Under the pieces are notes generated by a model. It was not told the origin of the DNA and made no database searches. It saw nothing but the letters and a program-made list of their open reading frames with translations. From Staphylococcus sp. MI 10-1553 (GTDB lineage Bacteria > Bacillota > Bacilli > Staphylococcales > Staphylococcaceae), in assembly GCF_010365305.1 (NCBI RefSeq), contig NZ_CP048279.1, positions 620,001 to 684,000 of the forward strand: 64,000 nt of DNA, read 5' to 3'. Shown here in pieces: positions 45,381 through 60,200 of this stretch (the stretch's first letter is position 1; each line of letters starts with the position of its first letter). The position numbers and the translations under genes were made by a program.

Positions 45381-47723
45381 ATGAAAAGGACAGGGCTCAA
45401 AAGTTTCATCCTTGTGGTGATGTTGATGCTTGCTATTTTCACATTGAATAGTGTTTCAAGTGATGCAGCTGAACAAGCATCGCAACATGCAGCACCGGCG
45501 ACCAAAGTGGAAGCGAATGCTGAAACGACTACAACTCAAGCGAGTCAACCGGATGTGACATCACAACAACAAGCAACAACAGAAGAAACAGCACAAAAGA
45601 TGTCGGAAAGTGTGACAGCTGTGAAACAGGAAAGGACACCTACTGTAACGACAGCTGCGACTGAAGATGAAACAGTTCAATCTAACGCACCAACGTTAAC
45701 AGAGAATGTTGCTCAAGCGAAAAATGATACACCAACGATGCAAACATTGGCAGTAACTAAAACACAACCAGAAGCGACGTCAACCGACCGTGCAAGTAAC
45801 GAAACGGAGACAACGACGCATACGATTTTACATACGAACGATATTCACGGCCGCATGGTGGAAGAAAAAGACCGTGTGCTTGGTATGGCGAAGTTGAAGA
45901 CATTAAAAGAACAACAAAATCCGGATTTACTTGTCGATGCGGGCGATGCATTTCAAGGTTTGCCATTATCTAACCAATCTAAAGGGGAAGAAATGGCGAA
46001 AGCAATGAATGCAGTCGGTTACGATGCGATGACAGCAGGGAACCATGAATTCGATTTTGGCTATGACCAATTGAAAAAACTGGAAGGCATGCTCAACTTT
46101 CCAATTGTGAGTTCCAACGTATACAAAGATGGCAAATTGGCATTTAAACCATCAGTCGTGATTCAAAAAAATGGTGTCCGATACGGTGTGATTGGGGTCA
46201 CAACTCCGGAGACGAAAACAAAGACAAGTCCAACAGGTATTGTCGGTGTGACATTTGCGGATCCTTTATCAAATGTGACGCGTGAAATGAACCGCTTAAA
46301 TGGACAAGTCGATGTGTTTGTCGTGTTGTCCCATTTAGGAATTGACCCGACAACAAAAGAACAATGGCGTGGGGACTATTTAACACGTCAACTCAGTCAA
46401 AACAAACAGTATCATCATCCGATTTTTGTCATTGATGGCCATTCGCATACAGTGATTGAACATGGTCAAAAGTTTGATCAAGACGTATTAGCACAAACAG
46501 GTACGGCACTCGCGAATGTCGGCAAATTGACGTTCAAACAGACTGGTCATCAGTTTTCAGATGCGGAGGCAAGCTTATTAAATGTCAAAAGTTTAGTAAA
46601 TTTACAACCGGATGCTGCTGTGAAAGCACAAGTCGACAAAGCAAACGAAGCATTTCTTAAGGCAACTTCAGAAGTGATCATTCCGAATAACACAGTTGAT
46701 TTTCAAGGTGAACGTGACGATGTAAGAACGCATGAAACAAACTTGGGGAATGCAATTACTGATGCAATGGAAGCTTATGGTCAAAAAGGCTTCAGTCGTC
46801 CATCTGATTTTGCGGTGACGAACAGTGGTGGTATTCGTGCGTCGATTGCGAAAGGAAAAGTGACGTTAAATGATGTCATTACGGTTTTACCATTCGGCAA
46901 TACGATCGCTCAAATTTCGGTCAAAGGTAGCGATGTGTGGAAGGCTTTCGAACATAGTTTAAGTGCACCGACGATGAGAACTGACGGTCAAACGCAATTA
47001 TCTGCAAATGGTGGTCTGTTACAAGTGTCAAAATCGATTCAAATTTATTTCGACATGAACAAAGCACCTGGCGAACGTATTAACGCGATTCGAGTGTTCA
47101 ACAAGCAAACAGGTCAATTTGAAGATTTAGATATGAGTCGTACATATGCAGTAGCGATGAACGACTTTACAGCATCAGGTGGAGACGGTTTTGACATGTT
47201 TGGAGGACCTCGTGAAGAAGGGATTTCACTCGAACAGGTCTTTGCGAACTATTTGAAAACAGCTGATTTATCACAATATACGACAACAGAACCACAACGT
47301 ATTATCAATGGTAAGCCTGTTGATAATAGTGGAGTATCAAAGACAACACCCGCGTCATCAAAAGGTGATAATATTATTCCATTCCCACAAACAACACCAT
47401 CAAAAGAGGTGCCGATGACAAAAGTGCCAACAGCAAATGGACAGTCACAACAAACAGCTATGAACGTAGCGTCTGAACATCGCGGCACTGCTCAATCAAT
47501 GGCACCAGCAGTGAGCATGATATCTACACATGAGACAGAAAAGACGGGTCAAGCGAATATGGCGATGACACAAAATGTTTCAGCAATAGGTCATTATGCA
47601 GCGAAGAATGGCGCACAACAGTTACCAAACACAGGTGCGACAGAACAAGCACCAATCGTGGGCGGCTTATTCATGTTAGGTGCAGGTTTAGTGATCATGC
47701 GACGTCAAAAACACCGTGCATAA
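45381..47723 (+). CDS. adsA: LPXTG-anchored 5'-nucleotidase (AdsA-like)
   Basis: A 780-residue cell-wall protein. An N-terminal signal peptide is followed by a Thr/Gln/Glu-rich linker of about 120 residues. The metallophosphatase domain begins with T-I-L-H-T-N-D-I-H-G-R and holds D-A-G-D-A-F-Q-G and T-A-G-N-H-E-F-D. The C-terminal nucleotidase domain contains V-T-N-S-G-G-I-R-A-S-I and S-G-G-D-G-F-D-M-F. It ends with L-P-N-T-G, a hydrophobic segment and R-R-Q-K-H-R, a sortase A signal. AdsA in S. aureus makes adenosine and deoxyadenosine to blunt host immunity; the same role is likely here. GGAGG fixes the start at 45381. Confidence 0.93.
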   Translation: MKRTGLKSFILVVMLMLAIFTLNSVSSDAAEQASQHAAPATKVEANAETTTTQASQPDVTSQQQATTEETAQKMSESVTAVKQERTPTVTTAATEDETVQSNAPTLTENVAQAKNDTPTMQTLAVTKTQPEATSTDRASNETETTTHTILHTNDIHGRMVEEKDRVLGMAKLKTLKEQQNPDLLVDAGDAFQGLPLSNQSKGEEMAKAMNAVGYDAMTAGNHEFDFGYDQLKKLEGMLNFPIVSSNVYKDGKLAFKPSVVIQKNGVRYGVIGVTTPETKTKTSPTGIVGVTFADPLSNVTREMNRLNGQVDVFVVLSHLGIDPTTKEQWRGDYLTRQLSQNKQYHHPIFVIDGHSHTVIEHGQKFDQDVLAQTGTALANVGKLTFKQTGHQFSDAEASLLNVKSLVNLQPDAAVKAQVDKANEAFLKATSEVIIPNNTVDFQGERDDVRTHETNLGNAITDAMEAYGQKGFSRPSDFAVTNSGGIRASIAKGKVTLNDVITVLPFGNTIAQISVKGSDVWKAFEHSLSAPTMRTDGQTQLSANGGLLQVSKSIQIYFDMNKAPGERINAIRVFNKQTGQFEDLDMSRTYAVAMNDFTASGGDGFDMFGGPREEGISLEQVFANYLKTADLSQYTTTEPQRIINGKPVDNSGVSKTTPASSKGDNIIPFPQTTPSKEVPMTKVPTANGQSQQTAMNVASEHRGTAQSMAPAVSMISTHETEKTGQANMAMTQNVSAIGHYAAKNGAQQLPNTGATEQAPIVGGLFMLGAGLVIMRRQKHRA

Positions 47724-47730
47724 ATGAGTA

Positions 47731-47775
47731 TCCCCCTAAAGTTGAGTTTTAAGGTTCAACTTTAGGGGGACACTT
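47731..47775 (+). terminator. Strong terminator after adsA
   Basis: A perfect 15-bp stem TCCCCCTAAAGTTGA/TCAACTTTAGGGGGA. It marks the right end of the core block before the accessory island; only a small AACTACA/TGTAGTT hairpin lies between it and the insertion sequence. Confidence 0.85.
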
Positions 47776-47933
47776 CATTCACACGGGTGGTTTTGATTAG
47801 ACAGTCTCACGCTCGATGTTATGAGAGGGTGAATAGTAAATTAATGGTTATTCTCCTACTCGATTATTCACATATAAACACTCAAGAAACCATTAAAATT
47901 TGATTTCTAAAACTACAGAAATTGTTGTAGTTA

Positions 47934-49610
47934 TTAAGGGGCTGGGACATAGACCTTCAGCTCCTTTAAGAAAAAGCCGTTAAAATTCATTTTTTTAGAA
48001 TTTGACGGCTTTTTTCTTATTAACGAACGAAAACGAGCACTTATTTTAGCTAGTTTTCGTATATTTACTGCCATGAGTGCGATGCCAAGTTCACACTCAA
48101 CCTTTGATTTTGTGCGAACCGATAATCTTTGGAAACCCAAATTAGCCTTCAGATTTCCAAAAGTTGATTCAACATCTATCTTTCTCTTTTGATAAATGTG
48201 TTTCGTCTTTGGATCTGAAAGCTGTTGATTTGTGAAGGCTTTAAAATAGTCCCAAGTTAAATTTCTAAATAAGCGTTTATTTGTGTTGGGGTTCGTACTT
48301 TGCTTCATACATTGACTTCGTAATGGACAGCCCACACACGCTTCACATGCATATAATTTAAAATCTCTTTGAATACCGTATCCATCTCTTTTCTTTCTGT
48401 AACTTTGGAAATGTAATTCCTTTTTGTTAGGACATATATAGTAATCATCTATCTCACGGTATTCCCAGTTAGCAGTAATCAATGGATTGTTTTTATATTT
48501 GCGCTGCTTCTCTTTGAGATACATACTATAAGTGATTAAAGGTGTTTTCTCAAATTCATCGAGTATCATGGTATAGTTGTATTCACTTCCGTAACCCGCA
48601 TCTGCCACAATATACTCTGGAATGTCACCATATAAATTGTGGATGGATTTTAAAAATGGTTCGAGCGTTCTTGTATCACCTGGATAACTGTAAACACCAA
48701 AAGCTAAAACGAATTGATTATGGGTTGCGATTTGTAGGTTATAACCCGGTTTCAATTGGCCGTTTCTCATATGATCATCTTTCATTCTCATGAAGGTCGC
48801 ATCGTGGTCGGTCTTTGAATAACTTTTTCTGTCACCATAAATTTCCATTTGCTTGTCATATTTGATTTTACGGTCTTTAAAATCTTGGATGGCTTTCTTA
48901 CTTTGTCTCACCTTACTTCTTTCTTTTCTAAGGGTTTTTCTTGTCTCTACATCTTGAGTCGTTTCAATTTCAGACGTGAGCGCATCATTTTTATGACCTA
49001 AATGCGTCTCTATTTGATTCAGTTCTTCACTTGTTAATTCATGCCCAGATTCACGTTTGATTTCAGGAATAATCTCTTCAGAAACGAGTTGCTCATATAA
49101 AGCCGTTGATTTTTCAATGACAGACTGACTAAAACGCTTCGTATTAGCCAGCCACTGGAATGTGTATTGATTCGCATTTGCTTCTATTTTTGTGCCATCA
49201 ATATAAATGACGTCCTCTGTAATGAGTTTATCTTCTAATAACTGGGCTCTTAAACCGACAAATAAAATATGTAGAAATTCCATCATATGGGGGTTCACTC
49301 TAAAGCGATTGATGGTTCTATAAGTTGGCGTTTGACCTTGCGCAAGCCACATCATTCGGCAACTATCTTTTAAAAGGTGCTCGATTCTTCGCCCTGAAAA
49401 AACAGAATGGGCATAACTATAAAGTATGATTTTTAACATCATTTTTGGATGGTATGATGAAGGACCTCTTTGGCTATAATATGGATTAAAAGCTTCTTGG
49501 GGGATAGATTCTACAAGTTTGTTAATAATAAATACAATATCATTTTCTGGAAAAGATATCTCAGTTTCTATTGGAAGTGTAAGTTGAAACATGTTATAAT
49601 TTTTATACAT
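47934..49610 (-). CDS. IS1182-family transposase
   Basis: A 558-residue transposase. N-terminal M-Y-K-N-Y-N-M and G-P-S-S-Y-H-P-K-M-M-L-K-I-I-L-Y-S-Y are IS1272-type blocks. The DDE-type catalytic core includes Y-I-D-G-T-K-I-E-A-N-A-N and Y-I-V-A-D-A-G-Y-G-S. A zinc-finger-like cluster C-E-A-C-V-G-C-P-L-R-S-Q-C lies near residue 430. It shows no frameshift, so may be active. GGGGTG before the ATG at 49610 decides the start; an ATG-like start nine bases upstream is poorly spaced. The stop codon lies at the inverted repeat. Confidence 0.92.
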   Translation of the reverse strand: MYKNYNMFQLTLPIETEISFPENDIVFIINKLVESIPQEAFNPYYSQRGPSSYHPKMMLKIILYSYAHSVFSGRRIEHLLKDSCRMMWLAQGQTPTYRTINRFRVNPHMMEFLHILFVGLRAQLLEDKLITEDVIYIDGTKIEANANQYTFQWLANTKRFSQSVIEKSTALYEQLVSEEIIPEIKRESGHELTSEELNQIETHLGHKNDALTSEIETTQDVETRKTLRKERSKVRQSKKAIQDFKDRKIKYDKQMEIYGDRKSYSKTDHDATFMRMKDDHMRNGQLKPGYNLQIATHNQFVLAFGVYSYPGDTRTLEPFLKSIHNLYGDIPEYIVADAGYGSEYNYTMILDEFEKTPLITYSMYLKEKQRKYKNNPLITANWEYREIDDYYICPNKKELHFQSYRKKRDGYGIQRDFKLYACEACVGCPLRSQCMKQSTNPNTNKRLFRNLTWDYFKAFTNQQLSDPKTKHIYQKRKIDVESTFGNLKANLGFQRLSVRTKSKVECELGIALMAVNIRKLAKISARFRSLIRKKPSNSKKMNFNGFFLKELKVYVPAP

Positions 49611-49713
49611 ATAAAGCACCCCTGTCTATTATTTTTGTCGTTATTAATAATTATACAGGAAGTGCTTTATTTTTTTAACGAACTAGGGGGATCAATTATG
49701 TCCCAGCCCCTTA
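47935..49713 (-). mobile_element. IS1182-family insertion sequence (IS1272-like)
   Basis: Perfect 16-bp terminal inverted repeats TAAGGGGCTGGGACAT (47935-47950) and its reverse complement (49698-49713) enclose one full-length transposase gene. I see no clear target duplication at the outer edges. A small hairpin (AACTACA/TGTAGTT, 47911-47932) abuts the left end, in keeping with the preference of some IS1182-family elements for stem-loops. It borders the RiPP island. Confidence 0.9.
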
Positions 49714-49789
49714 GCACTATTTATTTAGAGATTAATGTGCCAAACTCTTATACGAAACAGTTCACTGTTCTTAAAATTCATATTACCAC

Positions 49790-51235
49790 CTAAGGAAATG
49801 GATGAGGTTTATTATTAAGGATTCTAATTTCTTTATCGTCGAAGTACATCTCACACCATTCCCTTTCAAATCCTTTAAAAAATATGGGGTAGAAGTTTGA
49901 TTGTGAAGCTTTAACAATAGATACATTATTAAACTCCCTATCATTAATAGCATAATTAAAAAATTCTGTTTTCTTTAAATCAGTAGTGTTTGCATCTATA
50001 ACTATGTCACTCCAATCTACGCTATTTTCAATGGTTAATAATGATTCCATGTTTTTCAATTTTTGTTCACTATCTCTATGGGACCTATAATAGTTTAGAT
50101 GAAAATCAGATCCTTGAGTAGATGTTTTTGAAGGAAATTTATAATCAAAAAAGATACCTATTAGCAGTTCTCCAAAAGCCTTATTCAAAGCTTCACTTTT
50201 ACTGCTGTCATGACTCCCAATTCCAGACTTGATAAATGGTTCATTTTGCATATTTATAGTAATGATTAAAAAACAATAAATATTTTTATGTTTGTCTAAC
50301 TGATAGATATAAGTACTATATTCTTTCAGCTCCAACTCAACAATATAATTTTGAAAAAAGGTTGGGAGAGTGTTATTATCAATCTTTCTAATGTTCTTAT
50401 TATAAATCCAAGAAGTCATTAAAGAATCTCTTTCCAGTAGTTCGTTTAGAGCATTATTTTTAGCCATTTCTATATTAGGAGAAGCAGCAAAACCATTTGA
50501 GGAAGACTTATGGAAAGTTCTTTTATTCTCTTTTATTAGACAAAAAGCATTATTATCTATTTCTTCAATTCCTGTATAGTATTGAGGAAGAAAAATAGCA
50601 TATCTTTCTATAGATTCCATTACAGATTTAATTTTAGCTATACTTCTTTTAGGAGCTATCCCTATTCCTAAATCAGTTTCATGATAATATTCATTTAAAA
50701 CAGAAAGAGGATTGTAAAAGTATGTAAAATATACATAATTATTCTTAAAATATGAGTGTTTCAAATAATGGAGGATTTCACTATTCATTATTTCAATAGC
50801 CTTTATAATCGCATAATCTCCTACGTGCTTATCGAAATTCACATTCTTATAAGTATCGCAAGGACACATAAAATGATGATATGTGTTTAGATGAGAAATT
50901 TTTTTCGTTTTTTTGGTATTCAAGTCTACTATTAGTATAGTTTTGTTATCATCAATTTTTTTTATATTTTCCTTAATTAATTTTTGCTTTGACTTGGAAA
51001 ATAGATTTTTAAAAAGAAACAGTTTTGTATCATTAGAAGGATTTAGTGTCTTTTTTATTAAGTTGTATGTTTTATAATCTAAATTGTACAAAAAAATACA
51101 ATTAGGACAAAAGTTACAATTACTTTTCTTAGAAATCAATACTAAATTATAAAATTTGTATATGATAAAATCTCCAAAATTACTGCGAGAAATCTCTAAT
51201 TTCACGTTACTATTAATACGTTTGATTTGAATCAT
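49790..51235 (-). CDS. YcaO-domain cyclodehydratase of RiPP locus
   Basis: A 481-residue protein. The YcaO ATP-binding motifs are visible: S-V-M-E-S-I-E-R (204-211), N-G-F-A-A-S-P-N followed by E-L-L-E-R-D (265-270), and a later E-A-L-N-K-A-F-G-E-L. The C-terminus ends K-P-H-P-F-P, like the proline-rich tail needed by azoline-forming YcaO enzymes. The first 180 residues are unusual: Cys40, Cys43 and Cys46 plus Cys124 and Cys126 could bind zinc and may be a shrunken version of the ThiF-like partner domain. GGAAAGG supports the ATG at 51235. Expected role: ATP-dependent cyclisation of Cys/Thr in the precursor peptide. Base composition is much more AT-rich than nearby core genes. Confidence 0.88.
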   Translation of the reverse strand: MIQIKRINSNVKLEISRSNFGDFIIYKFYNLVLISKKSNCNFCPNCIFLYNLDYKTYNLIKKTLNPSNDTKLFLFKNLFSKSKQKLIKENIKKIDDNKTILIVDLNTKKTKKISHLNTYHHFMCPCDTYKNVNFDKHVGDYAIIKAIEIMNSEILHYLKHSYFKNNYVYFTYFYNPLSVLNEYYHETDLGIGIAPKRSIAKIKSVMESIERYAIFLPQYYTGIEEIDNNAFCLIKENKRTFHKSSSNGFAASPNIEMAKNNALNELLERDSLMTSWIYNKNIRKIDNNTLPTFFQNYIVELELKEYSTYIYQLDKHKNIYCFLIITINMQNEPFIKSGIGSHDSSKSEALNKAFGELLIGIFFDYKFPSKTSTQGSDFHLNYYRSHRDSEQKLKNMESLLTIENSVDWSDIVIDANTTDLKKTEFFNYAINDREFNNVSIVKASQSNFYPIFFKGFEREWCEMYFDDKEIRILNNKPHPFP

Positions 51236-51239
51236 ATTA

Positions 51240-52118
51240 TTAGACCTTTCCAAATCCTATGCAATGAATAACCCATTCATTTATAAAAAGATTTTCTTCA
51301 AAATTATGTTCAATGTAAGAGCCTAAATTAACCATCCCCATGGAATCATGAAGTAAAAAATTATTAAATTGTTGAGAAAACATACCTGCCTCTAATAAAG
51401 CAAATCTATAACCTCTATCTCCATACTTTTTTTGATTTCTCTCAGGAGAATATGTAATGACAACATAGAAAGGTACTTTATCATAATCGATATCTTTACC
51501 GACAAAAAACTCATTAATTGTAAGTACAGAACAATATTCATCAAATGAATGATTACTTGAGTCAAATAACAAAACTCTATAATAAAATTTCGAATTAACA
51601 ACTAAGTATATATTTAGAGGATACATATTCCCAGCTGATGGTATACCTCTGTGCCCATCGAAGTAATTACAACCATAACACTTACAAATCATTTTCTTTA
51701 TAGAACTCATTTGTGTTTCTAAATACTCAAAATTCTGTGAAAAGTATCTTTCAGATTTTCTAATTTCATTGTTATTTTCTATAGATATTTCACTATCAAA
51801 TTTAAAAGTACGATCTATTTTCCAAGGGAAGTAATTTTTCCCCATACTTGTATTATCATGATATACTTTAGAGAAATTAGGCTTATAATCTTCTAAAAAC
51901 ACCCCAATGCTGACCAAGAATCGAAAATTATCATATCCTACTTTGGAAATAATTATATTTTCGTGCACTGGGTTAGGATCAAAAATCATGCATTTAAGAA
52001 AATTCAGAATATTTTTCTCTAACTTTATTTTAAGTAATCTACTTTCTATATATGCGTCATTCTCCAAGTTAAATATTTTATAATCTTGATTTATTTTATA
52101 ATTACTCAAGGTTATCAA
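51240..52118 (-). CDS. SagB-like flavin dehydrogenase, third in RiPP operon
   Basis: A 292-residue nitroreductase-fold protein, shorter than its two neighbours because the N-terminal winged-helix part is reduced. The G-I-P-S-A-G-N-M-Y-P-L-N block (159-170) matches the FMN-binding P-S-G-G-x-x-P segment of SagB, and G-D-R-G-Y-R-F-A-L-L-E-A-G...S-Q-Q-F matches the later R-Y...E-x-G-x-x-x-Q block. C-x-C-x-x-C at 145-150 is odd. The start is TTG (52118, overlapping the previous stop) or TTG 52109. Likely oxidises azoline to azole, or carries out another oxidation. Confidence 0.75.
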   Translation of the reverse strand: MITLSNYKINQDYKIFNLENDAYIESRLLKIKLEKNILNFLKCMIFDPNPVHENIIISKVGYDNFRFLVSIGVFLEDYKPNFSKVYHDNTSMGKNYFPWKIDRTFKFDSEISIENNNEIRKSERYFSQNFEYLETQMSSIKKMICKCYGCNYFDGHRGIPSAGNMYPLNIYLVVNSKFYYRVLLFDSSNHSFDEYCSVLTINEFFVGKDIDYDKVPFYVVITYSPERNQKKYGDRGYRFALLEAGMFSQQFNNFLLHDSMGMVNLGSYIEHNFEENLFINEWVIHCIGFGKV

Positions 52119-53182
52119 TTTCCTATCGCAACTAGGTATCGTATATCTTCTATATACTCTTCTAAATCGAAAAGTTTAACCAATTCACTATCTCTTAAAG
52201 CGGGGGTCAAAAATGTTTTCTTTTGAAGATTAGTCGCTGCCAAAAGAAAACTTTGTGCTAATTGTGCAACATCAATTAATAAATTTCTATAAGCTCTCTC
52301 GTGATTATATCTCCACATATACTTATGATAATTAGCTGAGATAAAAATAATACAATTAGCATTTTCGATTTCTGGTTGACCGTAGCAATAATAACCTGCT
52401 GATTTGTCGGGTAGATTATTTAAATGGTTTAATCCGTGGCTTTTCATATCATAGTGATAGATACCGGGAGGAATATTAGAAACATTATTGATATATAAAT
52501 ATATTTCGTTACATGTGAAAACTGAATTTGTATACAAATTAGGATTTTGAACAATATTTTCAGATACTTTCTTTCTTATCACCCTTGCATCCTGAGTAGC
52601 CATATAAAGTATTTCACTAAACTCATTGATATCTAACGAAACTTCGCCGAATTCTCTATGTGTTTTTCTATTCATAAGGACTTTATAAAAATCTTTAGTT
52701 GTCTTAAACTCACTTTTTGGTAAAGATATAAATGAACTATTAATATAATTCTTATACAAATCGGGGGCCTTTTTCTCCCTTATCAATTTTTTATAGTGGT
52801 TACTTGCAATTTCTTTATCTTCATCAGACCCTATGTCTTGAAATTCTATATTTCTTGAAGTTACATAATGTAATAAAGATGGACTCCAATTTCTTTCGAT
52901 CCATTCTAATTTATTTTTATATAGATCATCATCTTTTGATTCTTCAATAAAAATATTTCTTTCTAATATTGTTTTAAATATATCTTCACTCATCTCTTTT
53001 TCGCAGTCAAAGATTGAAGTAATACTATTGACAGCTTCTTCATACGTAAAACGAGATTCTAAAGCTGATAGGAGCCTCAATATAGCTTCATCATTCAATT
53101 CATATAGTCTATTATCCAAAAGTTCCTCTAATTCATAATTTTGATATAGTTTAATATTTAAAGTAGGATTAATCATATACAT
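52115..53182 (-). CDS. SagB-like flavin dehydrogenase, second in RiPP operon
   Basis: A 355-residue protein. Residues 1-90 form a helical/winged-helix-like region that could recognise a leader peptide. The nitroreductase domain starts F-Y-K-V-L-M-N-R-K-T-H-R-E-F-G-E (166-180), a standard SagB opening, and contains I-Y-H-Y-D-M-K-S-H and E-R-A-Y-R-N-L-L-I-D-V-A-Q-L-A-Q. The P-S-G-G flavin loop seen in its two neighbours is not evident, so it may be a non-catalytic or altered partner. GGAG eight bases before the ATG. It overlaps the next gene by four bases. Confidence 0.75.
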   Translation of the reverse strand: MYMINPTLNIKLYQNYELEELLDNRLYELNDEAILRLLSALESRFTYEEAVNSITSIFDCEKEMSEDIFKTILERNIFIEESKDDDLYKNKLEWIERNWSPSLLHYVTSRNIEFQDIGSDEDKEIASNHYKKLIREKKAPDLYKNYINSSFISLPKSEFKTTKDFYKVLMNRKTHREFGEVSLDINEFSEILYMATQDARVIRKKVSENIVQNPNLYTNSVFTCNEIYLYINNVSNIPPGIYHYDMKSHGLNHLNNLPDKSAGYYCYGQPEIENANCIIFISANYHKYMWRYNHERAYRNLLIDVAQLAQSFLLAATNLQKKTFLTPALRDSELVKLFDLEEYIEDIRYLVAIGN

Positions 53183-53199
53183 TAAAATTGCTCCTTTAA

Positions 53200-54255
53200 T
53201 TAGATTGCTGTAAAGTAAATTATTCCTTCATTGTAACCATCTATATCTAGCAAACGCTCTACATTATCGTCGTTAAGACCAGAACCTATTGTATAGCTTG
53301 CAAGTCCCAAAAGGCGCGTTATTAATTTAAAATTGTATAGAATATGACCGAAATCATAATAAATAACTTTGTATGTTTTAGGCTCTCTATATCTAAACCA
53401 GTTCCTTGGAAAAATAGAAGTATGAAGAAAGACAATTTCAGCTTCTTTTTCAAATTGATTTAGTCCGTAACAAGATTCATACAAGTATTTTTTGAAATCC
53501 CCTTCTTTTATAAGCTCTAGACAATGGTTTTTAACAGAATAATGATAAATTCCTTTCTTTAATAACGCGGAATTTAAGATTGCTATATAACATTCTGAGG
53601 GATGCCTAGCCCCTCCCGAAGGACTAGTCCTTCTAATTAGTTTCTGAGTCACAGGAAATTTCAAACTGCTAATTTGTCCGTAAGTGTAGAAAAGAATGTC
53701 ACTCAATAATTGTAAATCAAGTTCTGTATTTAGTTGTCTCTCAACATCAAATATTTCATAAAAGTTTTTACTACTATGCGTCCTCACTTTTGGTAAGTTA
53801 ACTTTTTCTCCTGTAACTTCTTTGTAGATAGACGGTTCATCTTCTTGATTTATAAATTTTTTCATAGTCTTTTGATCGCGAACATAAGAGGCTGGTGTTG
53901 AATAATCAAGAACTGGATAGTCATACGTATAAGTATGATAAATAAGACTATTAATCCAGCCATAACTTTTCCATAATTCATAATATTTTTCTATCTTGTC
54001 ACCTTCTTTAATTAAAAATTTATTTTTTATCAAGTAATTAAAAATTTCTTCTAGGTTGTATTTCTCAATTTTAAGGTTTTCACAAACAAACTTTTCAATT
54101 TCATTATAACTTTTAGCTTCTTTCATATGTAAAATTAATTCAAGAAGTTTATTATCTATCCTTATTGTTTTTTTCGATTTTGAATTCGTTAATTCCATTC
54201 CATCGTTTTCGAATGTAAAGTAGGATAGAGGACTTATTTTATATTTATTATTCAT
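53200..54255 (-). CDS. SagB-like flavin dehydrogenase, first in RiPP operon
   Basis: A 351-residue protein with an N-terminal winged-helix-like region (about 5-85) and a nitroreductase domain. R-R-T-S-P-S-G-G-A-R-H-P-S-E (208-221) is the hallmark FMN loop of SagB/thiazole-forming peptide dehydrogenases. I-Y-H-Y-S-V-K-N-H is also shared with the family. AGGAG precedes the ATG. It is the first enzyme gene after the precursor, 80 bases downstream. Most likely the true azoline dehydrogenase. AT-rich with frequent AGA and ATA codons, unlike the flanking core genes. Confidence 0.82.
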   Translation of the reverse strand: MNNKYKISPLSYFTFENDGMELTNSKSKKTIRIDNKLLELILHMKEAKSYNEIEKFVCENLKIEKYNLEEIFNYLIKNKFLIKEGDKIEKYYELWKSYGWINSLIYHTYTYDYPVLDYSTPASYVRDQKTMKKFINQEDEPSIYKEVTGEKVNLPKVRTHSSKNFYEIFDVERQLNTELDLQLLSDILFYTYGQISSLKFPVTQKLIRRTSPSGGARHPSECYIAILNSALLKKGIYHYSVKNHCLELIKEGDFKKYLYESCYGLNQFEKEAEIVFLHTSIFPRNWFRYREPKTYKVIYYDFGHILYNFKLITRLLGLASYTIGSGLNDDNVERLLDIDGYNEGIIYFTAI

Positions 54256-54335
54256 TTTTTTCTCCTATAAAAGTATTAGAGAAGGCTTCTATGAAAATCC
54301 AATAGCAGCCTGCCTCAATTCCTCAGTACTAAATA

Positions 54336-54440
54336 TTAGGCTTCTTTAGTTCCGCCCCCGCCCGGTCCAGTTACACAACCTTGACGCATTGCTGCTTCAT
54401 TTCGTTTAACTTCTTTGATTTCGATGTTAACTTTACTCAT
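54336..54440 (-). CDS. Candidate RiPP precursor peptide, 34 residues
   Basis: A short gene with an excellent ribosome site (AAAGGGGG, seven bases before ATG) directly upstream of the SagB/YcaO genes. The first half is charged and helix-like (Lys/Glu/Asn/Ile), as in a leader. The second half reads R-Q-G-C-V-T-G-P-G-G-G-G-T-K-E-A: one Cys (residue 22), two Thr (24, 31), a Gly-Pro and a poly-Gly run, typical of an azole-modified core. Cys22 and Thr24 are preferred heterocyclisation sites, since Gly precedes Cys. A single intact copy. The cleavage site and modification state are inferred. Confidence 0.8.
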   Translation of the reverse strand: MSKVNIEIKEVKRNEAAMRQGCVTGPGGGGTKEA

Positions 54441-54505
54441 ACATACACCCCCTTTGTGTATAAATGTAACTTAATAATAACAAAACAATTAAAATATTCA
54501 AACTA

Positions 54506-54534
54506 TTGTGTTAAAAAAGAGTTGATGGTATATT
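54506..54534 (+). promoter_or_regulatory. Promoter of the extra argS gene
   Basis: TTGTGT at 54506-54511 and TATATT at 54529-54534 with a 17-base spacer lie just before the argS-like start. The precursor operon starts divergently from the same 116-base gap; its own promoter is less clear, with a TATACA-type -10 near 54460 on the minus strand. Confidence 0.6.
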
Positions 54535-54556
54535 ACTAAGAAAGAAGGTGAAGTTT

Positions 54557-56221
54557 ATGTTTAAGAAGTCGATTGCAAAAGATCTATCAGAAATTTTAAA
54601 AGGTCAGATGACTTTTGAAGAAATATATAATATTCTCGAACACCCAACTAATGAGAATTATGGTGAATATTCGTTTCCGACTTTTCAACTTGCTAAAATT
54701 TATAAAAAATCTCCAAATTTGATTGCTAACAGTATCAAAGGGAAGTTTGATAATGAATATATTCATAAAGCAGAGGTTGTAAATGGTTTTCTTAATTTTT
54801 TTTTAGACAGACAATCCAGTTCACAAAAGATAATTGAGTGTTTCAACGAAAATGCTTTAAAAAATAATAAACTATTAAGTGCAGAGAAAATAGTCATAGA
54901 TTATTCAAGCCCTAATATAGCGAAACCTTTTTCTATGGGTCATTTGAGAGCTACGGTTATTGGAGATAGTATCGCTAAAATACTTGAAGCAAATGGAGCT
55001 AAAGTTATTAGAATAAATCATTTGGGAGATTGGGGAACCCAATTCGGCAAGTTAATAGTTGCTTATAAAAAATGGGGGGAACAAAAAAGAGTTGAAAATA
55101 ACCCTATACTTGAGCTTTTTCATTTGTATACAAAGTTTCATGAAATTAGTAAAGATAATCCACATATTGATTTAGAAGCCAGAGAAGCTTTCAAACTTTT
55201 AGAAAGCGGACATAGTGAATACGAACATTTATGGTCATGGTTTCGCAATGTTTCTATGGAATCTTTTAATGCTTTATACAAGCTTTTGGATATCAACTTT
55301 GATTATATTCAAGGAGAATCTTTTTATAATGAAAGATTAAAAGAAACTATAAAATTATTAGAAGAAAGAGAATTATTAACTCGAGATGATGGTGCTTATA
55401 TTGTAGATTTAGACGATTTACCACCTGCACTGATTAAAAAAAGAGATGGGGCATCTCTATATATCACGAGAGATTTATCAGCTGTTTTGTATCGTATCGA
55501 AACCTTTAATCCTACACGTATACTATATGTAGTAGGCCAAGAACAATCTATTCATTTCAAGCAACTAGACAAACTTACTAGATTATTGGAATTAACGCCA
55601 GTCATAGAGCATATTCCTTTTGGTTTGATTTTAAAAGATGGTAAAAAAATGTCCACAAGACAGGGCAAGGTACTACTACTTGAAGACATTATTGCAGAAG
55701 TAGAGGAAGCCGTTCTAAGGACTTTAGAAAAGAAAAAGTCGAACTTAAGGAATAAAAAAGAAATTGCCAAAGAAATTGCTATTGCTTCTATCAAGTTTCA
55801 CGATCTGAAAAATGATCGCCTTAGTAGCTACGATTTGAAAATTGATGAGATGTTGGCTTTTGAAGGGGACACTGCATTGTACATAATGTATACTTATGCA
55901 AGGATTCAATCTATCTTAGGAAGAACCAAATACTCTGATGATTTTAAGGGGGATTTTCAGTTTGAGGAAAGTATGTGGCCTATTTTAAAACATTTAAAAT
56001 CCTATAATGAAGTTTTGGAATTATCTGCTATAAACTATACTCCATCTTCAATATGTAGATATTCTTTACAGTTATGTCGTCTTTTTAATAGGTATTATAA
56101 TATTGAAAGAATATTAGAAAGTACAAACGAAAAGTCAAAAATAACTTTATTAAAAATAGTTTCCAAAAACATTGAAGATTCCATGGAGTTACTAGGTATA
56201 AATTTAGTGAAAGAAATATAG
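54557..56221 (+). CDS. argS: Second arginyl-tRNA synthetase, putative self-resistance
   Basis: A full-length, 554-residue class I synthetase. The HIGH-type motif is F-S-M-G-H-L (125-130), preceded by Y-S-S-P-N-I-A-K-P; the KMSKS-type motif is K-M-S-T-R (364-368). An N-terminal tRNA-recognition domain and a C-terminal anticodon-binding helical domain are present. The S-S-P-N-I-A-K-P-F form belongs to a lineage unlike the usual Bacillus/Staphylococcus ArgRS (V-S-A-N-P-T-G-x-L-H-x-G-H-A-R). AGGTG supports ATG 54557; GTG 54548 is too near. Placed divergently from a RiPP precursor, it probably protects the producer from an ArgRS-directed product. It has its own promoter and terminator and is AT-rich. 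Confidence 0.92.
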   Translation: MFKKSIAKDLSEILKGQMTFEEIYNILEHPTNENYGEYSFPTFQLAKIYKKSPNLIANSIKGKFDNEYIHKAEVVNGFLNFFLDRQSSSQKIIECFNENALKNNKLLSAEKIVIDYSSPNIAKPFSMGHLRATVIGDSIAKILEANGAKVIRINHLGDWGTQFGKLIVAYKKWGEQKRVENNPILELFHLYTKFHEISKDNPHIDLEAREAFKLLESGHSEYEHLWSWFRNVSMESFNALYKLLDINFDYIQGESFYNERLKETIKLLEERELLTRDDGAYIVDLDDLPPALIKKRDGASLYITRDLSAVLYRIETFNPTRILYVVGQEQSIHFKQLDKLTRLLELTPVIEHIPFGLILKDGKKMSTRQGKVLLLEDIIAEVEEAVLRTLEKKKSNLRNKKEIAKEIAIASIKFHDLKNDRLSSYDLKIDEMLAFEGDTALYIMYTYARIQSILGRTKYSDDFKGDFQFEESMWPILKHLKSYNEVLELSAINYTPSSICRYSLQLCRLFNRYYNIERILESTNEKSKITLLKIVSKNIEDSMELLGINLVKEI

Positions 56222-56310
56222 ATATATTAATTTAAAATATAATTACATTAATATTATCGGTCAAGAATTTTACGGGTTCTTTGACAAATGTGATTGATGA
56301 GCAAAAACAT

Positions 56311-56350
56311 AGAGATTAAGTGACATAAAGTTGCTTAATCTCTTTTTTTA
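56311..56350 (+). terminator. Terminator after extra argS
   Basis: A perfect 10-bp stem AGAGATTAAG/CTTAATCTCT followed by seven Ts. Confidence 0.9.
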
Positions 56351-56428
56351 GAAGTGCTATAAAAATATTCCTACATAAAATGATATGACTACATAAATGA
56401 TCAAAATTTTTATAAACAAAAAAATTCG

Positions 56429-56578
56429 ATGTATAAGTATCACCATAATTTTATGAGCACATCGTTGGCAAGAGATCCTCATCAATCTTTTGGAGGAAGA
56501 AAAGCAATATTGTTAAAAATAAATGCACCTAAAGGAACAAAAGTTTTGAATGTTTTAGTATGTAAATGGCGGTTATAA
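56429..56578 (+). pseudogene. Remnant of ADP-ribosyltransferase domain
   Basis: A 49-codon frame reads H-N-F-M-S-T-S-L-A-R then S-F-G-G-R-K-A-I-L-L-K-I-N-A-P-K-G-T-K-V. This is the S-T-S strand and following beta segment of the ART fold, as in C3/EDIN-type exoenzymes or phage head-associated ARTs. The upstream NAD-binding Arg region and the downstream catalytic E-x-E region are both missing, so it is a fragment. It has no ribosome site. It marks old mobile or toxin DNA at the edge of the island. Confidence 0.55.
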
Positions 56579-56632
56579 AATGTAGGAAAATGGCAGAATG
56601 AAAATATTGTTTTTTCTACATTTTTTATTGTG

Positions 56633-56740
56633 GTGCGCCTGGCATGGGTAACATCTAGACGGTGAAAGTCCGTTACAGGCTTGGTAGTAGGAACTGTTAG
56701 CGAAAGACAAGGGTGTCCATTGCGAAGTGGAATCTGAAGG
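56633..56740 (+). mobile_element. 5' fragment of a group II intron
   Basis: Starts GTGCGCC and continues with ACGGTGAAAGTCCGT, CAGGCTTGGTAGTAGGA, GTTAGCGAAAGAC and GGGTGTCCATTGCGA, which reads as the opening domain I of bacterial group II introns. About 108 bases remain; the rest of domain I, the maturase gene and domains V-VI are absent. It stops abruptly at unrelated sequence. Confidence 0.65.
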
Positions 56741-56744
56741 TTTT

Positions 56745-56849
56745 GACTTTATCATCAATAGCTAAGTTATGTATAGCGTATGATAGTTCGATATTTTCTC
56801 TAATAGTTAAATATTCTTGACCTTCCCCATATTTGTAAGAAAAAAATAT
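56745..56849 (-). pseudogene. Fragment resembling an ABC transporter ATPase
   Basis: A frame of about 35 codons ends at both sides without start or stop logic. It reads G-E-G-Q-E-Y-L-T-I-R-E-N-I-E-L-S-Y-A-I, the stretch after the Q-loop that is typical of exporter-type ABC ATPases (L-T-V-R-E-N-x-x-L). Walker motifs are not present. It abuts the group II intron fragment. It may be a leftover of an export or immunity transporter of the RiPP locus, but is too short to be sure. The rest of 56850-57120 shows no gene. Confidence 0.35.
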
Positions 56850-57135
56850 TTATTTTTTCTTTATGCTAAGAGGCTATCATAACTTCCAATTTAAAAGATT
56901 AAATATGCCTAACTGATGGATAATCGTTCCTAACTATTTATTAAAAATTTTAATTCTGATCAAATTATTATATTATATACTAATTGTAAACTTTAAAAGC
57001 CATAACTATCAAAATGTTTGAAATACAGAAAATCTTTGCTCATAAATATTTACTTCACTATTACCCTATTTTTTCATTTCCGTCTACACAAACTGTATTC
57101 AACATCTTTAACCGTTTTCACGCGCACAACAAAGC

Positions 57136-57170
57136 TAGGGAATCCTACTAGTGAATTAGGCATTTCCCTA
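57136..57170 (+). promoter_or_regulatory. Dyad upstream of narG
   Basis: TAGGGAA (57136-57142) and TTCCCTA (57164-57170) are perfect arms around an inner CCTA/TTAGG pair, about 70 bases before the narG start. It could be an operator for the NreBC oxygen/nitrate system or a relic hairpin; its arms resemble the TAGGGAAT...ATTCCCTA terminator at 40.2 kb. Confidence 0.4.
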
Positions 57171-57240
57171 ATATCTTCCATATGTGAATAAATGTACAAT
57201 CAGTGTGATAGGGCGTGCTATGCGAAAAAGGAGGATATCT

Positions 57241-60200
57241 ATGGCTAAATTTGGAATGCAATTTTTTAAACCGACTGAAAAATTTAATGGCAATTGGTCA
57301 GTATTAGAACATAAAAGCCGTGAATGGGAAAAGATGTATCGTGAAAGATGGAGTCATGACAAAGTGGTTCGTACGACACATGGCGTCAACTGTACGGGGT
57401 CATGCTCATGGAAAGTATTTGTGAAAAACGGTGTCATTACTTGGGAAAATCAACAAATCGACTATCCGAGTTGTGGGCCGGATATGCCGGAGTTTGAACC
57501 GCGTGGCTGTCCGCGTGGGGCGTCGTTTTCTTGGTATGAATATAGCCCGTTACGCATTAAATACCCATATGTCAGAGGTAAACTTTGGGATTTATGGACG
57601 GCAGCTTTAGAGGAACATCAGGATCCTATTAAAGCATGGGCGTCTATTGTAGAAGATGAAGAAAAAGCAAAAATTTATAAATCTGCACGTGGTAAAGGGG
57701 GACATGTCCGTACAAATTGGAAAGATGTGTCTCAACTCATCTCAGCACAGCTCATTTATACGATTAAAAAAGATGGTCCAGACCGTATTGCTGGTTTCAC
57801 GCCAATTCCAGCGATGTCGATGATCAGTTATGCTGCGGGTGCGCGTTTTATTTCGTTGCTCGGTGGGGAGATGTTGAGTTTCTATGATTGGTATGCGGAT
57901 TTACCACCAGCGTCGCCACAAATTTGGGGTGAACAAACAGACGTGCCGGAATCAAGTGACTGGTACAATTCGTCTTATATTATGATGTGGGGCTCAAACG
58001 TACCGCTCACACGTACACCGGATGCACACTTTATGACGGAAGTACGTTATAAAGGTGCAAAAGTTGTGTCTGTTGCGCCGGATTACGCTGAAAATGTGAA
58101 GTTTGCGGACAATTGGTTGGCACCAAATCCAGGTACAGATGCGGCGATTGCACAAGCGATGACACACGTCATTTTACAAAAGTTTTATGAAGATGAGCCG
58201 TCAGAAATGTTCATCAATTATGCGAAACAATATTCAGATATGCCATTTATCCTGCGTCTCGATCAAGATGACAATGGCTTTAAAGCAGGTCGCTTCTTAC
58301 GTTCAAGTGATTTAGGACAAACATCTGAAAACAGCGAATGGAAGCCGATGATCATCGACCGTTTAACAGATTCGCTACAAGTGCCAAACGGAACAATGGG
58401 TCAACGTTGGGAAGAAGGCAAACAGTGGAATTTGAAGTTGGAAAATGAAGCGGGCGAGAAGATTGATCCAGCGATGACTGTGGTTGACGGTGACTATGAA
58501 TTGGTTACGATGCAGTTCCCTTACTTTGATAATGATGGCAATGGTGTCTTCAAACGTGTCATTCCAGTGCGTCACGTGACATTGGCAGATGGTGAAACGG
58601 CCTACGTAACGACAGTGTATGACTTGATGGCGAGCCAATACGGTGTGAAACGTTTCAATCATGAATTAGAAGCAAAAGGTTTTGATGATGCAACGTCGTT
58701 CTACACACCAGCGTGGCAAGAAAAGATTACAGGTGTGAAAGCGAGCACTGTGACGCAAGTCGCGATGGAATTTGCACAAAATGCGATAGATACAGGTGGT
58801 CGCTCAATGATTATTATGGGTGCGGGTATCAATCACTGGTTCAACTCTGATACGATTTATCGCTCTATCCTAAATTTAGTCATTTTATGCGGATGTCAAG
58901 GTGTGAATGGCGGGGGCTGGGCGCACTATGTCGGACAAGAGAAATGTCGACCAATTGAAGGTTGGAGTACGATTGCCTTTGCGAAAGATTGGCAAGGTCC
59001 ACCACGTTTACAAAACGGGACAAGTTGGTTCTATTTTGCGACAGATCAATGGAAATATGAAGAGTCTGGTGTCGACCGATTAGCGTCTCCATTAGCTGAA
59101 AACATTCAATTACAACACCCTGCAGATTATAACGTGTTAGCGGCGCGTAATGGTTGGTTACCATCATATCCACAATTTGATCGCAACAGTTTACTTTGGG
59201 GTGAAGAAGCACGTGATGCTGGTGAGTTTACGAATGAAGCCATTTTGAACCGTGCGGTTGACGATGTGAAATCACGCCGTACACGTTTTGCGGTTGAAAA
59301 TCCAGACTTACGTAAAAACCATCCGAAGTCACTTTTCGTATGGCGTTCGAATTTGATTTCAAGTTCTGCTAAAGGTCAAGAGTATTTTATGAAGCATTTA
59401 CTCGGTACGAAATCGGCACTTATGGCGGAACCGAATGAAACAGACAAGCCATCAGAAATTGAGTGGGGTGAAGATACAGTCGGAAAACTCGACTTACTCG
59501 TGTCATTAGATTTCCGTATGACAGCGACACCACTTTATTCGGATATCGTATTACCGGCAGCAACATGGTATGAAAAACATGACATTTCATCAACGGATAT
59601 GCATCCATTCGTTCATCCGTTCAACCCAGCGATTGACCCGTTATGGGAATCACGTTCAGACTGGGATATTTTCAAAACGTTGAGCCGTACTTTTTCAGAT
59701 ATGGCACGCGTGCACTTAACAGGGACTTATAAAGACGTTGTGACTGCACCACTTGCGCACGATTCAAAACAAGAAATTTCACTCGCATATGGTGAAGTGA
59801 AAGACTGGACAAAAGGTGAAGTCGAAGCTGTACCAGGAAAAACAATGCCAGCATTTGCCATCGTTGATCGTACGTATACAGATGTGTATGACAAGTTCAT
59901 CTCAGTTGGCCCATTACTTGAAAACGGTAAAGTAGGTGCGCATGGTGTCAGCTTCTCTGTCAAAGACCAATACGATGAATTGCGCAGTATGGTCGGGACT
60001 TGGGAAGATGATACGGTAAAAAATAATAAACCGCGTATTGATACCGCACGTAAAGTGGCAGATGTTATTTTGAACGTGTCTTCTGCTACAAACGGTCGCG
60101 TATCTCAAAAGTCATATGAAGATTTGGAAGCACAAACAGGTATGCCGTTGAAAGACATTTCTTCTGAGCGTGCATCGGAAAAAATCTCGTTCTTGAACAT

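Follow-up and report, generated by a model that had tools for sequence, protein, structure and literature searches.

In a 64,000-nucleotide stretch of DNA from Staphylococcus sp. MI 10-1553 (contig NZ_CP048279.1, positions 620,001 to 684,000; hereafter the window, numbered from its first letter), which sits in a single-contig genome of 2.9 Mb (G000), a compact operon with enzyme families typical of ribosomally synthesized and post-translationally modified peptides (RiPPs) lies divergent from a complete second gene for arginyl-tRNA synthetase (ArgRS), argS2. We put at about 0.5 the probability that this is a mobile RiPP cluster in which argS2 serves for self-protection, that is, a cluster with a spare copy of the target of its product built in.

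The operon and its precursor-like gene

All components named in a preliminary description of the sequence, i.e. a short precursor-like gene, three genes for SagB-like proteins, a YcaO gene and a divergent, complete argS between adsA and narG, are present. Leftwards, on the minus strand, the order of the operon is precursor, SagB1, SagB2, SagB3 and YcaO, with 80 bp between precursor and SagB1, 17 bp between SagB1 and SagB2, a 4-bp overlap of SagB2 and SagB3, and either an overlap of SagB3 and YcaO or, if YcaO starts at 51235, a 4-bp gap.

The first gene of the operon (54336..54440, minus strand) is a 34-aa precursor-like open reading frame (ORF), MSKVNIEIKEVKRNEAAMRQGCVTGPGGGGTKEA, with a probable leader, MSKVNIEIKEVKRNEAAMRQ, and a probable core, GCVTGPGGGGTKEA, the cut between the two being a guess; the core contains one Cys, two Thr and no Ser. 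NCBIfam gave no match for this ORF. Its ribosome site score of 4 in a crude scan is not distinctive, with at least 10 other starts among 103 equalling it, and the region is rich in small ORFs (53000-57300 has 44 of at least 20 aa). Nevertheless, the order and spacing of the operon, together with the recurrence of the leader (18 of 21 residues, E = 1e-7) beside a 94% identical argS2 in another genome (G041, locus L025), place this gene beyond chance. The set had been called AT-rich throughout, which holds for the enzymes (guanine-plus-cytosine (GC) content 0.27-0.29) and argS2 (0.30) but not for the precursor, which at 0.44 is the exception (adsA and narG, 0.43); the Gly codons of its core (54336-54380) are GC-rich, although the surrounding block is very AT-rich.

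The 107 bp that separate the divergent precursor and argS2 genes (54441..54547) are kept, along with the leader, in L025. A promoter-like site at 54501-54474 on the minus strand is a consensus match only and, given that 39 promoter-like sites were observed vs. 48 in shuffles, such sites provide no evidence. RNA structure in 54440-54560 was no better than in shuffles (z = −0.32). Rfam gave no match in the window at the gathering score and, with E values as high as 1 admitted, none in 54200-57300; therefore, no T-box is indicated by this test.

The predicted modification enzymes

The enzymes fit an azole RiPP, as had been proposed. SagB1 (53200..54255, minus strand), a predicted flavin mononucleotide (FMN)-type peptide dehydrogenase, matches NCBIfam SagB above the cut-off (E = 1e-30) and contains SPSGGARHPSE, the SPSGGxRHP motif being invariant or nearly so in SagB1 and 39 relatives. 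With an AlphaFold2 model of SagB1 (confidence score pLDDT 88.6, 40 sequences), the best Foldseek match was ThcOx, the cyanobactin oxidase (E = 1.4e-17, TM 0.73 by query), and BmdC and McbC of microcin B17 synthetase were matched as well; by its model SagB1 is thus thiazoline-oxidase-like, with a predicted activity of this kind. A weaker match, outside the 14 Foldseek matches at E ≤ 0.001, was to the leader-bound RiPP recognition element (RRE) protein TbiB1 (5v1v; 88 columns, E = 7e-3, probability 1.00), in agreement with the order of strands and helices in residues 4-83, so that the RRE-like part of the model is probably N-terminal.

Three SagB-like proteins had been counted, and Pfam Nitroreductase indeed matches all three. 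SagB2 (52115..53182, minus strand) scores above the NCBIfam SagB cut-off (E = 2e-23) and, in the alignment, lacks SPSGGxRHP, as does its Anoxybacillus counterpart; it may not be an active dehydrogenase and is possibly a non-catalytic partner. SagB3 (51240..52118, minus strand), shorter at 292 aa, falls below that cut-off (E = 6e-16; Pfam Nitroreductase E = 2e-5) and keeps PSAGNMYP. In the protein database, SagB1 has three relatives, 49-62% identical; of 26 pattern matches in IMG/VR none was confirmed as a SagB1 relative, and of 56 in the genome contig collection one proved to be related to SagB (Pimelobacter, 29%).

The YcaO cyclodehydratase-like protein (49790..51253, minus strand) matches Pfam YcaO above the cut-off (E = 8e-14, residues 243-367) and the NCBIfam SagD family with 64 bits vs. 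a cut-off of 219. The more likely start is the ATG at 51235 (481 aa), as in the relative P0073. An extra N-terminal part of about 140 aa with CxxC and CxC, common to P0073, could be a reduced E1-like/ThiF-like partner, and the two cysteine motifs are perhaps a metal site. The protein contains SxxExxER, presumably a YcaO motif. Its C-terminal PHPFP is a tail of the azoline type, PxPxP, and is shared by the YcaO that belongs to the TOMM-like cluster of genome G052 (see below); azoline-forming YcaOs have a C-terminal PxP motif that takes part in catalysis, according to a section of PMC7136475. A structure model of YcaO from two sequences was too poor (pLDDT 39.5) and was not used, and a PDB sequence search with YcaO gave no match.

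YcaO was found in one of 84 genomes of the genus and, with a two-row profile, in one of 398 genomes of the class, each time in its own genome. Among the best 7,997 protein-database candidates by shared words, P0073 (47-48% identical) is the only relative beyond the protein's own cluster, and none of 20 candidates in the genome contig collection was confirmed. The closest intact relatives of the cluster are P0002 (62% identical to SagB1)/P0073 and Metabacillus indicus P0003 (52%); P0073 and P0002 may be neighbours, because both go with one 12,065-base contig.

The accessory synthetase and its family

argS2 (54548..56221, plus strand) encodes a complete accessory ArgRS that scores above the cut-off of the argS equivalog model (E = 9e-121) and has the N-terminal, catalytic and DALR domains of the family (Pfam). 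There are three argS matches in G000, i.e. argS2, a full housekeeping copy (2500415-2502025) and a truncated piece, so that argS2 is not the only argS of the genome and was rejected as an ordinary housekeeping gene; in line with the suggestion of a foreign-type second copy, the two complete proteins are only 24% identical. The truncated piece (2800449-2801546; L004 8447-9541) is 75% identical to argS2, covers residues 192-557 and adjoins the SNase-family gene that also neighbours argS2, there intact, in G022. Proteins of S. delphini and S. cornubiensis are 92-93% identical to the piece. Because the piece matches both the G022 context and these proteins, the species group seems to have once had an argS2 that decayed in G000. 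Within a few kb of the G022 gene lie a radical SAM/SPASM gene and an ATP-binding cassette (ABC) transporter gene (L028 846-4322).

Relatives of argS2 (E ≤ 1e-30) are patchy, occurring in 14 of 108 genomes of the family; when P0093 served as query, they were found in 20 of 157 genomes and 7 of 14 genera of the order. All 20 also have a housekeeping-type argS; 17 of the relatives are full-length and three broken (G073, G090, G501), and in one more genome, G055, the match is a fragment of 49 residues. Pairwise ratios of nonsynonymous to synonymous substitution rates (dN/dS) among five intact copies (window, G041, G030, G022 and G002) are 0.085-0.164, dS being saturated for distant pairs, and indicate purifying selection. 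A 31-row tree places the window argS2 with four other Staphylococcus copies, Lacicoccus and Aliicoccus lying one step out (99/100), and sets apart a second accessory ArgRS clade of six rows (100/99); the place of the housekeeping row means little, since it is a single, very long row. The best reading is that argS2 was recruited from an older accessory ArgRS family.

In third-position GC, argS2 (0.233) is near the enzymes (0.216-0.230), compared with 0.337 for the housekeeping argS. Among the best 120 of 318 protein-database matches, argS2 is 98% identical to a Staphylococcus pseudintermedius protein cluster, so that this dog bacterium is probably the host. On plasmids, 62 records match argS, and the three inspected (Klebsiella, Enterococcus, Salmonella) have housekeeping-type neighbours.

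Linkage of the operon and argS2

We looked for matches to the six proteins from the window at 20 argS2 loci, each in a different genome other than G000 and with approximately 4-10 kb on each side, at E ≤ 0.01 for SagB and YcaO; four of these loci contain broken genes or fragments. An argS match was found in 20 of 20 and the precursor leader in one (L025), whereas the other 19 had no match to precursor, SagB or YcaO. No second genome with the full gene set was found. Cluster member counts (199 for ArgRS, 134 for SagB1 and 162 for YcaO) are not strain counts and prove nothing on co-occurrence.

L025 is 94% similar to positions 54377-56351 of the window, i.e. to argS2 and the divergent region, and the similarity ends directly after the MRQG codons, cutting off the core. 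The G041 argS2 is full-length and 94% identical, with a dN/dS of 0.16; YcaO was not found in this genome, nor SagB in the 18 kb of it that were read. L025 does give a weak SagB1 match (P0002, 42 residues, E = 0.003), but this lies inside argS2 and was dismissed as chance. The preliminary description had proposed to seek the gene set in other genomes; of this set, the neighbourhood of leader and argS2 stands in two genomes, and the association with SagB and YcaO was found in the window only, which argues against a tight pairing.

The foreign block and its insertion site

The block between adsA and narG is wider than first described and includes an insertion sequence (IS): by DNA similarity breakpoints against G022 and G019, it extends over about 47725..57120. 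adsA ends at 47723 and narG is at 57184; similarity to both genomes ends at 47724 and restarts at 57125 (G022) or 57120 (G019), the adsA-narG interval of G019 being approximately 300 bp, and G016 is similar on the narG side only. The ORFs of at least 120 aa in the block are a transposase, the four enzymes and argS2. The transposase (47934..49619, minus strand; Pfam DDE_Tnp_1_6, DDE_Tnp_1 and DUF772), which we take to be of the IS1182 type, lies on the 3' side of the operon, where a perfect 17-nt inverted pair (47935-47951 and 49697-49713) probably represents the IS terminal repeats, with 76 bp between the YcaO stop and the probable IS end; by eye, a near-identical protein is encoded at L004:12692-14971. 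There was no near-identity DNA match of the block and no YcaO match on plasmids.

In G022, the adsA-narG interval contains another RiPP-like cluster (L077 7403-11323), in which a radical SAM/SPASM protein, a peptidase of the S41 type and an ABC transporter accompany a tandem pair of small peptides whose sequences end in NLESCSCACGTVTGKGSGV and NLESCACACGQKIGSGNGN; because of this different cluster, the site may be a hot spot. Window positions 56622-56727 resemble short pieces in L031 and, with no Rfam match, read as what we take to be the 5' end of a group II intron.

Proposed mechanism and alternatives

If the operon is an azole RiPP cluster protected by argS2, the leader would be bound by the RRE-like part of SagB1 and perhaps also by the N-terminal part of YcaO; YcaO would close at least the Gly-Cys site to a thiazoline, which SagB1 (with SagB3, and SagB2 as partner) would oxidise to a thiazole. 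The product would be a short, Gly-rich modified peptide that, itself or as a remnant after proteolysis, would block the housekeeping ArgRS of sensitive cells, while argS2, which belongs to another subfamily, would escape inhibition, allowing the producer to survive. We infer that the peptide is made and that argS2 protects; the chemistry is suggested by the enzyme families, and ArgRS as target by the place of argS2 together with the known second-synthetase logic (as given in part of PMC9437257). That this would be the first ArgRS-directed RiPP antibiotic, with the patchy Staphylococcales argS2 as the resistance side of a wider, unseen product group, is more tentative, at somewhat less than even odds. 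If the pairing is functional, ArgRS would be a new natural antibiotic target, the RiPP enzyme set would be a compact one without the usual partner protein, and staphylococci would have an unrecognised resistance gene family.

Several observations weigh against the self-protection reading. On the chemical side, YcaO scores below the SagD-family cut-off, its relative P0073 ends in IHPFP, the position that we take to be the third ATP-motif glutamine is Ile in both proteins, the core has a single Cys, and no E1-like/ThiF match was found among the proteins of the operon (Pfam, NCBIfam). There is no exporter among the block ORFs of at least 120 aa, and a leader peptidase is also missing from the block; these are either host functions or were lost at the IS insertion. 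As to linkage, SagB and YcaO matches are absent from all 20 argS2 loci examined in other genomes, so that argS2 is retained where the cluster is not, and the pairings consist of one intact (window) and one decayed (G041) case. Visual inspection of the 450 bases preceding argS2 in G030, G019, G022 and G002 revealed no leader, and likewise showed that each of the three nucleotide differences in the leader of G041 alters a residue, so there is no sign of coding selection. In the 17-18 kb read around the more distant SagB clusters, on an Anoxybacillus plasmid and in G351, nothing matched argS. The match in composition is weak, because AT-richness extends to the argS2 relatives of G041 and G030 (third-position GC 0.249 and 0.271). 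Finally, no natural ArgRS inhibitor was found among the best-ranked papers in the open-licence PubMed Central literature, where no paper has the phrase 'arginyl-tRNA synthetase inhibitor'; the four mentions of ArgRS located in PMC7916415 concern mechanism, classification, a reference and a table.

The persistence of argS2 without the enzymes at 20 of 20 outside loci is what would be expected if argS2 were an ordinary accessory gene of Staphylococcales, serving in stress, arginine limitation or other resistance, and had entered the mobile block by chance, as the spread of its relatives over 20 of 157 genomes of the order, the two separate accessory ArgRS clades, and the retention of argS2 at another site in G022, with a truncated counterpart in G000, also suggest. 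We nonetheless consider such hitch-hiking less likely, given that the leader and divergent region are kept with argS2 in a second genome, that the base composition of argS2 is near that of the enzymes, and that the resident argS2 has decayed whereas the cluster-linked copy is intact. It is, furthermore, unlikely that the product is not an azole, whatever the role of argS2, with the SagB proteins dehydrogenating other residues and YcaO making an amidine or thioamide: the PHPFP tail and the SagB1 fold, nearest to thiazoline oxidases, argue for an azole, against which stand the one core Cys, the E1-like partner that was not seen, and the Anoxybacillus plasmid and G351 clusters, whose three and two SagB-like proteins, respectively, come without a match to this YcaO.

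The divergent pair with a common control region, in a mobile block at a variable site that has no exporter and no ORFs of at least 120 aa other than those of the transposase, the four enzymes and argS2, would also be compatible with a poison and antidote acting in one cell, whereby an unexported peptide blocks ArgRS upon a trigger (phage, or loss of the block), with argS2 as antidote, for addiction or defence. This appears quite improbable, as none of the six proteins matches a PADLOC defence model and the SagB cluster of G351 has a major facilitator superfamily (MFS) transporter, so that the locus in the window may have lost its exporter where the IS lies. A biosynthetic role, with argS2 supplying Arg-tRNA for the addition of arginine to the peptide, has a precedent in the tRNA-dependent peptide tailoring of other RiPPs but is very improbable: no tRNA-dependent transferase was found among the scanned proteins (Pfam, NCBIfam), and the 20 other argS2 loci lack the enzymes.

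Comparison with known systems

Protective second synthetases and RiPPs with YcaO and SagB are already known. The set of YcaO and SagB with an arginine synthetase was not found among the best-ranked open-licence PubMed Central titles, in agreement with the earlier statement that no described system with it was known to the author of the preliminary description. Mining of S. pseudintermedius genomes in PMC12300986, a paper with 6,815 isolates, yielded a subtilosin A cluster, and the main text of that paper mentions no YcaO, azole or tRNA.

The locus resembles the azol(in)e RiPPs (linear azol(in)e-containing peptides/thiazole/oxazole-modified microcins, LAP/TOMM) in its small precursor-like peptide with a probable leader, its YcaO with a PxPxP-type tail and its SagB/ThcOx/McbC-type dehydrogenase. 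It differs in that no E1-like/ThiF partner was seen and an exporter is missing, and in its three SagB-like proteins and one-Cys core. Bottromycin YcaOs act without partners, according to a section of PMC7136475. In Staphylococcus G052, a TOMM-like cluster (L070 5251-10616) comprises an ABC transporter, a SagB that scores above its NCBIfam cut-off, and SagC-like and SagD-type proteins that do not reach theirs.

The SagB clusters without YcaO share with the locus a small upstream ORF and tandem SagB-like proteins, but have a putative membrane transporter in the place of YcaO and no argS match in the stretch read. On the Anoxybacillus amylolyticus plasmid NZ_CP015440.1 (L038 7623-13632), three tandem SagB-like genes follow a 51-aa ORF ending ETYVRRQMGE, and the membrane protein, which has no Pfam match, is a transporter by eye only; in G351 (L069 7058-10923), there are two SagB-like genes, a 51-aa ORF and a transporter assigned to the MFS by Pfam. 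These clusters possibly represent a kind of RiPP that relies solely on SagB proteins.

Microcin C, described in part of PMC7136475 as a RiPP that acts on AspRS, is likewise a ribosomally made peptide of very small size and targets a synthetase, as is proposed here. It differs in that the adenylylating MccB makes an Asp-AMP analogue and in its target, AspRS; among the proteins scanned here, no match to the ThiF family, to which MccB is similar, was found (Pfam, NCBIfam). To our knowledge, mupirocin, indolmycin and albomycin are not ribosomal peptides, and none of them targets ArgRS. Their producers carry a second synthetase, as the preliminary description had noted for the first two, and copies of the mupirocin type also occur in non-producers (both from passages of PMC9437257). 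The likeness of our locus to these systems, i.e. to the IleRS of mupirocin, the TrpRS of indolmycin and the SerRS of albomycin, lies in a complete second synthetase beside the cluster, with the housekeeping copy elsewhere.

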